A DNA stretch of 32,532 bases, taken from positions 1-32,532 of the forward strand of contig JAFWXX010000027.1 in assembly GCA_017522915.1 (NCBI GenBank). Direction: 5' to 3'. Each line of letters starts with the position of its first letter. Positions within the stretch are counted from its first letter, which is position 1. This document shows, piece by piece, positions 4,881 through 32,532 of this stretch. The notes below the pieces were generated by a model. That model ran no database searches and had not been told where the DNA came from. It saw only the letters and a list, made by a program, of their open reading frames with translations. Position numbers and translations under genes: made by a program. The stretch comes from Bacteroidaceae bacterium (lineage in GTDB: Bacteria; Bacteroidota; Bacteroidia; Bacteroidales; Bacteroidaceae).

Positions 4881-5741
4881 TTATCCAAGATATGGTTTTA
4901 GAAGTTTACTTCGCTGATCTTGTTTCAAACGGCGAATAGCCTTTTCCTTGATTTGTCGCACACGCTCACGTGTCAGGCCGAAGCGGTCTCCGATTTCCTC
5001 AAGAGTCATCTCCTGCTGGCCAATTCCGAAGAACATCTGGATTATATCCTTCTCTCTGTCCGTCAAGGTAGATAATGCACGGTCAATCTCTCGTGACAAA
5101 GACTCATTCACAAGAAGATTGTCAGCCATTGGGGAATCGTCGTTCACAAGAACGTCAAGAAGACTGTTGTCCTCACCGTCAACGAACGGAGCGTCAACAG
5201 AAATATGTCTTCCCGAAACCTTCAAGGAATCCACAACCTTGTCAACAGGCAAATCCAACTGGTCTGCAAGTTCCTCTGCCGAAGGACGACGCTCATTTTC
5301 CTGTTCAAATTTAGAGAATGCCTTGCTTATCTTATTAAGCGAACCGACTTGGTTCAAAGGAAGGCGAACGATTCTCGCTTGCTCTGCAAGAGCCTGAAGA
5401 ATTGATTGTCTGATCCACCACACAGCATAACTGATGAACTTGAAACCACGTGTCTCGTCAAACTTTTCCGCAGCCTTTATCAAGCCGAGATTCCCCTCAT
5501 TGATGAGGTCGGGCAAGCTCAACCCCTGATTCTGATACTGTTTTGCTACAGAAACGACAAAACGCAAATTGGCTCTTGTCAACTTTTCCAACGCTCTACG
5601 GTCACCTTTTCTGATTCTTTGGGCGAGTTCAACCTCTTCCTCAACGGTAATGAGTTCCTCACGGCCAATCTCCTGCAAGTACTTGTCGAGCGATGCGCTT
5701 TCGCGGTTTGTGATACTTTTTGTAATCTTTAATTGTCTCAT
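4881..5741 (-). CDS. rpoD: RNA polymerase primary sigma factor (RpoD/SigA)
   Basis: This is the housekeeping sigma factor of the Bacteroidetes type, 286 residues, with no long region 1.1. Region 1.2 is [16 protein letters not shown] near the start. Region 2 carries the core-binding and -10 recognition helices ([53 protein letters not shown]). Region 3 follows. Region 4 ends with the helix-turn-helix [28 protein letters not shown]. The start at 5741 ([15 protein letters not shown]) is the canonical N terminus for this family; an in-frame start ten codons earlier would overlap the promoter. It stands alone, with its own promoter and terminator. Its presence agrees with the TAnnTTTG promoters throughout the window. 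Confidence 0.97.
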
Positions 5742-32222: not shown

Positions 32223-32295
32223 GCGGTAGTAGCTCAGTTGGTAGAGCATCAGCTTCCCAAGCTGAGGGTCGCGGGTTCGAGCCCCGTTTACCGCT
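32223..32295 (+). tRNA. trnG: tRNA-Gly (anticodon CCC)
   Basis: The 73 bases fold as a complete cloverleaf. The acceptor stem GCGGTAG pairs with TTACCGC (last pair G-U). The D arm is GCTC/GAGC. The anticodon stem TCAGC/GCTGA encloses the loop TTCCCAA, so the anticodon is CCC, reading GGG glycine codons. The T arm is GCGGG/CCCGT with loop TTCGAGC. CCA is not encoded. It is followed immediately by a hairpin terminator and then by tandem partial copies of its own 3' half. Confidence 0.95.
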
Positions 32296-32296
32296 C

Positions 32297-32338
32297 TTAA
32301 TAATGAATGACAGCCTTTAGGTTGTCATTTGTTATTAA
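32297..32338 (+). terminator. tRNA-Gly terminator hairpin
   Basis: TTAATAA...AATGACAGCCT pairs with AGGTTGTCATT...TTATTAA around a TT loop, with a G-U pair and one internal mismatch. It begins two bases after the tRNA. Confidence 0.75.
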
Positions 32339-32418
32339 ATAATATACATGGGAAGCTGAGGGTCGGAGTTCTTTGCAAGCAAAGCGACTGCGTCGGTTAC
32401 GAGCCCCGTTTACCGCTC

Positions 32419-32460
32419 TTAATAATGAATGACAGCCTTTAGGTTGTCATTTGTTATTAA
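32419..32460 (+). terminator. Second, identical terminator copy inside the tandem repeat
   Basis: This is an exact copy of 32297-32338, displaced by 122 bp as part of the array. It follows the partial tRNA copy. Confidence 0.7.
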
Positions 32461-32532
32461 ATAATATACATGGGAAGCTGAGGGTCGGAGTTCTTTGCAA
32501 GCAAAGCGACTGCGTCGGTTACGAGCCCCGTT

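Follow-up and report, generated by a model that had tools for sequence, protein, structure and literature searches.

Tandem tRNA-tail units with a double-hairpin insert behind tRNA-Gly(CCC) in a Bacteroidaceae genome

Here we analysed a 32,532-nucleotide stretch of the genome of a gut Bacteroidaceae bacterium (the window, which is contig C48 of 60 and is complete to the contig end) and found that it ends in a tandem array of units, each of which joins a copy of the 3' end of tRNA-Gly(CCC) to a pair of short hairpins set in the T loop. Units with this anatomy and T-loop position recur at six kinds of tRNA gene and at tmRNA. A near-identical tRNA-Asp unit is present in two species, one unit is a Gly/Asp hybrid, and on one contig a stretch of cargo is bracketed by modules. 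Our preferred reading, to which we give a probability of roughly one half, is that short attachment-site modules, poor in genes, have piled up in tandem in the T loop of tRNA and tmRNA genes; such a module is small and probably mobile, with tRNA ends as its landing site. The array combines two known kinds of arrangement, accretion at a tRNA end and a double-hairpin repeat, and is more widespread and more structured than was first visible.

ARAGORN calls one tRNA gene in the window, tRNA-Gly(CCC), and TRF reports a period-122 array at 32274-32532 with 2.1 copies and 99% matches. Identity at an offset of 122 is exact over 133 bp (32278-32410) and starts precisely in the T loop. The original prediction of a 122-bp tandem repeat 3' of this tRNA is borne out by all three results, and the 72 identical bp it described are the tail, hairpin and spacer segment listed twice in Table 1. 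That segment makes up only part of the unit. The other 50 bp (32350-32399), absent from the original description, comprise 13 bp from the anticodon-arm/variable region of the tRNA (AAGCTGAGGGTCG; 32353-32365 equals 32259-32271), a degraded T-stem strand and a 29-bp insert, TTTGCAAGCAAAGCGACTGCGTCGGTTAC. The insert lies between the TTC and the GA of the T loop, with its last C perhaps belonging to the tail, and can be folded as two adjacent hairpins. The 5' acceptor strand is absent from the unit, as judged by eye. The long hairpin behind the tRNA, described earlier as a terminator, is present and forms 19 pairs in the fold, but a simple terminator scan does not call it. The window shows two 122-bp units, of which the second is truncated where the contig stops; the third unit counted earlier was the tRNA's own tail. 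The hairpin insert, its distribution across tRNA genes and species, and the continuation of the array on contig C51 had been missed.

Table 1 Features of the array at the right-hand end of the window.
Feature	Position	Strand	Basis
Intact tRNA-Gly(CCC), head of the array	32223..32296	+	ARAGORN; Rfam tRNA 67.8 bits
tRNA 3' tail (T loop onward) with long hairpin and spacer; the copied 72-bp segment	32278..32349	+	122-offset identity
Long terminator-like hairpin 3' of the tRNA	32299..32336	+	fold
Unit 1, truncated tRNA-derived 5' border: AAGCTGAGGGTCG and degraded T-stem strand ending TTC	32350..32371	+	
Double-hairpin element, copy 1, T loop TTC^GA; last C ambiguous	32372..32400	+	
72-bp tail/hairpin/spacer segment, second copy	32400..32471	+	122-offset identity
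Long hairpin, second copy	32421..32458	+	122-offset identity
Unit 2, truncated tRNA-derived 5' border	32472..32493	+	122-offset identity
Double-hairpin element, copy 2	32494..32522	+	122-offset identity
Last 22 bp of the contig, shared with the reverse-strand start of C51, into which the array continues	32511..32532	+	

The first 22 bases of C51, read on its reverse strand, are identical to the end of C48, and from this overlap and the shared unit we infer that the two contigs are neighbours. The continuation opens with a Gly tail whose hairpin region is slightly variant. It is followed by the hybrid unit. On the left this unit matches Gly-type units from other species (AAAGCATCGCGGGTTC); on the right it has a tRNA-Asp tail, different at two letters, with an Asp-type hairpin behind it. 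Past the hybrid lie approximately 2.6 kb of cargo and then one further unit with a Gly tail (L009 11770-14500). One gene in the cargo encodes a methyltransferase (Methyltransf_11, E=2e-18), and a 185-aa ORF there has no Pfam match. On a third contig, C60, two units of 112-113 bp stand behind tRNA-Asp and carry the same double hairpin (L010 8940-9245). The array is not a chance arrangement: the core CTTTGCAAGCAAAGCG occurs six times without mismatch in this genome, and all six copies precede a tRNA 3' end, which in one case is truncated by the contig end. Allowing one or two mismatches gave seven more places, which looked like chance. Elsewhere on C51, a degenerate tRNA-Thr-like copy lies directly upstream of an intact tRNA-Thr(CGT) (L009 9328-9520).

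A contig that ends inside a repeat, with visible units that are identical, could also arise as an assembly loop around what is in truth one unit. We consider this very unlikely. The Gly tail on C51 has a variant hairpin region, and tandem units that differ from one another lie well inside contigs of 134 and 199 kb in other species. Since some tandem units sit inside such long contigs, an artefact does not explain the class, although it could still affect the exact number of units here.

The distribution of the double hairpin was determined with two covariance models. The first (R1), built from 10 sites, matched 10 of the 44 genomes of the genus at E<=0.001. The second (R2), built from 20 diverse sites, matched 26 of the family's 399 genomes; these belong to 9 of 30 genera and include two genus members that R1 had missed, and 26 is a lower bound, since strict filters were used. 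A pattern scan of named genomes gave 35 loci, which by eye comprised 20 real, 2 unclear (L080, L088) and 13 chance loci. The real ones are mostly from ruminant-gut Bacteroidaceae MAGs and from Prevotella or Prevotellaceae, and include the isolate Prevotella aff. ruminicola Tc2-24, whose unit is at tRNA-Met (L094). Among the units viewed, the host genes are tRNA-Asp, Gly, Ser, Met, Lys and Leu, and tmRNA; two tandem units follow tmRNA in SIG145 and likewise in RUG12758. At tRNA-Ser(TGA) in G062, three tandem units inside a 134-kb contig carry the insert in reverse orientation. Tandem modules are spaced at approximately 80-170 bp, mostly without a gene, and a direct repeat of the target gene's 3' end is present at each module boundary. 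Wherever the contig reaches, ARAGORN finds an intact target gene in front of the units; no tRNA is in view for several of the tail copies, which are on C51 or at the ends of contigs.

An origin as a phage attachment site was considered and rejected. Two scans of viral contigs returned 2 and 15 stretches, all of which looked by eye like chance or coding matches, and phage and plasmid records searched with 84 bp of the window's unit gave no match. In a Prevotella genome, an Asp unit starts with the 5' acceptor strand GGTGCGT and has a truncated second unit behind it (L109 7250-7420); because of this start, it could be folded as a whole tRNA-like RNA. In G023, a unit abuts by eye the 3' end of a uvrA-like gene on the opposite strand (L074, about 5180-5240), and the stop codon of that gene seemingly lies in the complement of the tRNA-Gly tail.

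The double hairpin spans 29-46 bp and is conserved at the inner end of the module, in the T loop. In an alignment of 20 sequences, 94.0% of cells pair, against at most 55.6% in slid controls, and 14 cells are changed on both sides, against a shuffled mean of 3.1 with none of 500 shuffles as high. Two of the five covariation measures are weaker: four pairs show changes in both partners, a value reached in 9 of 500 shuffles, and the tally of further pair types, reached in 79 of 500, is unremarkable. Larger sets of copies were scored for the first inner pair of hairpin 2. It is Watson-Crick in 58 of 78 flank-distinct copies, some of them chance or unclear loci (shuffled mean 20.1, maximum 32); with such loci taken out, the figure is 57 of 73 (mean 19.3, maximum 31), and among 64 distinct cores it is 48 (mean 15.7, maximum 26). 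Because pairing exceeds the shuffled controls, it is the stems that are kept and not the letters alone; the copies are related to one another, so these counts carry no formal probability. Single-strand DNA folds of three cores gave z-scores of -2.7, 0.05 and -0.92 relative to shuffles. Since only one of the three folds clearly better than its shuffles, the case for structure rests on covariation rather than on energy.

Covarying stems would also be expected if the units were a functional array of tRNA-like 3' RNAs, acting as a decoy for or regulator of tRNA processing and composed of a T-stem, two T-loop hairpins, an acceptor strand and the terminator-like hairpin. The idea of such an array was raised originally. 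The covariation of the hairpins speaks for it, and a Ser module that is alike in two genera and the Prevotella Asp unit with its 5' acceptor strand are consistent with it. However, the orientation of the insert with respect to the tRNA is not constant, being reversed at tRNA-Ser(TGA), and the window's own unit has no 5' acceptor strand. No promoter-like site was found on the unit's strand by a scan that does not cover Bacteroidetes promoters, the distribution is patchy (the 26 matching genomes above), and the same hairpins occur away from tRNA genes. This reading appears unlikely.

The original prediction had suggested searching related genomes for the same array next to tRNA-Gly, and extra tRNA-Gly tails were indeed found at 11 of 22 scored loci of the genus (10 by script and G019 by eye), in line with our preferred reading. 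There were 30 tRNA-Gly loci in all (L307-L336), of which 24 were scored after the weaker matches L331-L336 were left out; G007 and G009 gave no row, as the tRNA start pattern missed them. Six of the arrays carry the insert (G000, G019, G004, G023, G030 and G064), and in G064 the tRNA 3' half is perfect apart from the interruption by the insert. The remaining five (G003, G017, G034, G061 and G062) have only another, insert-free form, which is also the form of the first units of G004 and G030. Here an inverted piece of the T arm and a linker are followed by a hairpin directly before GGGTTCGAG; the hairpin is either GCGATGCnnnGCATCGC or another sequence in which the stem is kept. RNAalifold picked the outer inverted repeat of this form, with no double changes. 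That five of the 11 arrays hold only insert-free units counts against our preferred reading of piled-up attachment-site modules. Four of the 11 loci without extra copies (G035, G005, G067 and G028) end 28-243 bp after the tRNA; for two of them, G005 and G035, a unit with a Gly tail is present on a different contig. Within several species the tRNA and its units have the same hairpin/terminator, which differs between species; this supports the earlier idea of local amplification.

For tRNA-Asp, we surveyed 230 bases 3' of the gene in 30 loci, some of them shorter. Among the 30 loci shown, only G013 and G005 have Asp units; together with those of G000, the window's genome, each has the insert. 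An insert-free Asp unit was found in 0 of 399 genomes at up to one mismatch. In G000, two Asp units, with the same hairpin before both, lie by eye between tRNA-Asp and the flank, and in another species, G022, the outer Asp flank of G000 follows directly after the single hairpin. Similarly, the distal hairpin and flank of G013 and G005 resemble by eye those directly after tRNA-Asp in G062, G017 and G019. These comparisons are consistent with an old flank that was displaced outward, an argument weakened by the fact that hairpins and terminators may simply evolve fast. The Asp units of G000 and G005 are 98.2% identical over 113 columns, spacer and hairpin included, while their flanks are 61-69% identical upstream and 55% downstream. 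This near-identity points to horizontal transfer of the unit between the two species. Transfer is the simpler reading because hairpins here vary widely between other species; as the alternative, strong constraint could have kept the units alike. By eye, two genera share a Ser module without a difference over more than 40 bp, although the neighbouring hairpins differ.

The double hairpin also occurs as a dispersed repeat. Searching with a strict pattern gave 24 copies in G142, 23 in G360, 19 in G408, three in G139, one in G380 and none in four others, while the reversed control pattern gave none in all nine genomes. The copies in G142, G360 and G408 are mostly dispersed. When 30 of the 70 copies were viewed, four stood before a tRNA tail and 26 did not, with no tRNA within 600 bp. 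TTC precedes 79 of 81 copies in a search that required C alone, and 72 of 73 once chance or unclear loci are removed, most loci in both sets having been fetched with TTC in the pattern. Several copies sit in other repeats. At position 1501 of L251 and L255 (G139), a double hairpin interrupts another repeat at CCCCTTC^GACAGGCTCAGGGACCG, and no empty copy of CCTTCGACAGGCTCAGGG, which is part of this interrupted repeat, was found among the loci examined. Double hairpins are embedded in a repeat family with the flank TCTAAAGGCCCCAGTCGCC at L264 and L273 (G142), and in a family with the flank GCTGCTC..AAATTTG at L253 and L257 (G142) and L274 (G360).

Two ideas about the hairpin pair were considered and set aside. 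A preference for palindrome centres, suggested by eye, was rejected by flank shuffling, with 37 of 78 copies observed against a mean of 32 and a maximum of 43. An IS200-like or RAYT origin was rejected as well: the Y1 transposase PF01797 is present in 19 of 60 genomes and does not track the copies, being absent from G000, G062, G139, G142, G360 and G408, several of which are rich in copies.

Dispersed hairpins away from tRNA genes are not predicted by a role as attachment site alone, and they fit the main rival explanation, in which nothing was integrated. Here tRNA tails would have been duplicated by slippage or fold-back, a REP-like double hairpin would have landed at TTC^GA, and unequal recombination would have made the units tandem. 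The TTC that precedes nearly every copy, subject to the way most loci were fetched, agrees with such a landing, as does the interrupted tRNA 3' half of G064. The insert-free units begin with inverted pieces of their own tRNA, as fold-back would leave them, and in several species the hairpins of the tRNA and its units are alike. However, the same explanation sits poorly with the lack of any insert-free Asp unit in the family, and it would not lead one to expect near-identity across species, a Gly/Asp hybrid or bracketed cargo. The insert flanks are no more palindromic than shuffled ones, and the Y1 transposase is missing from several genomes where copies are plentiful. We regard this explanation as a real possibility, though with the odds against it.

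A recombinase next to the units was sought in 24 genomes, comparing 37 core sites with integrase hits on the same contig (G084, G321, G326 and G349 lay outside the search). An integrase over the cut-off occurs within 10 kb of only one of the 37 sites, 5.1 kb from the core site of a tRNA-Met unit in G139; an integrase beside the units was accordingly rejected as a general feature, although its absence is weak evidence since many sites are at contig ends. The G139 frame encodes a 383-aa tyrosine integrase and lies approximately 230 bp beyond a tRNA-Ser(TGA) gene (L167 67-1218) and 4 kb from the tRNA-Met unit, and it more likely belongs to that tRNA-Ser than to the tRNA-Met unit. The integrase gene that had been anticipated just past the right edge of the window was not found on C51 by a generic integrase search. 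Genes or remnants of a mobile type do occur near units, in favour of our preferred reading. An integrase-like fragment below the cut-off lies 87 bp from the Asp core of G005. In G019, a HigB toxin and HTH pair is found approximately 1.5 kb before a unit, and elsewhere in that genome a Fic/DUF4172 protein, accompanied by a weak integrase fragment that scores below the Pfam cut-off (E=0.017), lies near a unit. The possibility that the loci have a protein in common was also considered and rejected, as the 25 largest clusters (at least 3 of 52 loci) look like ordinary synteny genes. That no recombinase is tied to the units is a further point against our preferred reading.

The original prediction had named the tRNA 3' end as an attachment site, and several results speak for it: the location at tRNA and tmRNA 3' ends, the start in the T loop, the apparent position between tRNA-Asp and the old flank, the bracketed cargo and the near-identity of the Asp units. 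If the array is a pile-up of such modules, each module would bring its own copy of the tRNA tail; because it carries this copy, insertion would leave an intact tRNA in front and push the old tail and flank outward. The double hairpin would then be the inner end of the module in the T loop, next to the crossover. The insertions may have been performed by a site-specific recombinase supplied in trans, perhaps by a visiting phage or integrative element, and the module may pass through a circular form. Unequal recombination between repeats could subsequently have multiplied modules locally, giving the identical neighbours in the window. By analogy with integron attC, a further reading takes the double hairpin as a folded single-stranded recombination site in a system of horizontally mobile, mostly gene-less T-loop cassettes, which would have been inserted serially at many tRNA and tmRNA genes and would have exchanged tails, as in the Gly/Asp hybrid, and cargo across the Bacteroidaceae. 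We consider this doubtful.

The 3' ends of tRNA genes are classic landing sites for mobile elements. In E. coli tyrT, tandem 178-bp repeats behind the gene carry the 3' end of tRNA-Tyr. The arrays described here likewise consist of tandem tRNA-tail units behind a tRNA gene, but they occur at several loci rather than one and contain a double hairpin, and we know of no such insert in the tyrT repeats. REP elements are moved by Y1 (RAYT) transposases; they share with the double hairpin that they are short hairpin repeats, sometimes in tandem, and differ in that several copy-rich genomes here have no Y1 transposase. In the literature found, which covers the subject in part, neither this array nor any tRNA-tail hairpin repeat of Prevotella or Bacteroidaceae is described, and the visitors described at tRNA ends are gene-carrying islands, while the module here is approximately 120 bp. 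Should the module prove to move, it would rank among very small mobile units that target tRNA genes, and the way in which islands gain entry points could be learned from it. A double hairpin joined to a tRNA tail also marks hot spots for islands in the genomes of gut Bacteroidaceae; the assemblies of several of these genomes break exactly at these sites.

Parallels also come from three further systems. Mitochondrial double-hairpin, or repetitive hairpin-forming, elements are adjacent hairpin pairs present in many copies and suggested to be mobile (PMC2800124, PMC5910586). The element here resembles them in being a short pair of adjacent hairpins with many copies; unlike them, it is bacterial and TTC-adjacent, and the six perfect copies in the window's genome lie only in the T loops of tRNA tails. 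CIMEs are decayed integrative elements that have kept their attachment sites, have lost their recombination genes and accrete in tandem at the end of a target gene (PMC5704250). The units share with them the tandem accumulation at a target-gene end and attachment sites without recombination genes, and since CIMEs by definition lack a recombinase, modules of this kind would need a helper. Unlike CIMEs, most units here are only attachment-site-like DNA, exactly repeated in the window.

The ssrA islands of Dehalococcoides are inserted in the middle of the tmRNA T loop, with tmRNA 3'-end repeats piling up downstream and a conserved 15-bp motif directly before each repeat (PMC3146451). The islands carry genes; 16 have an integration module that includes serine recombinases, and some have no integration genes (PMC3146451). 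The arrays described here agree with the reported features in the T-loop position, the pile-up of 3'-end repeats and the motif before each repeat. In contrast to those islands, the modules are spaced at only ~80-170 bp, are mostly gene-less and use several tRNA genes, and the place of the 15-bp motif is taken by a covarying double hairpin.
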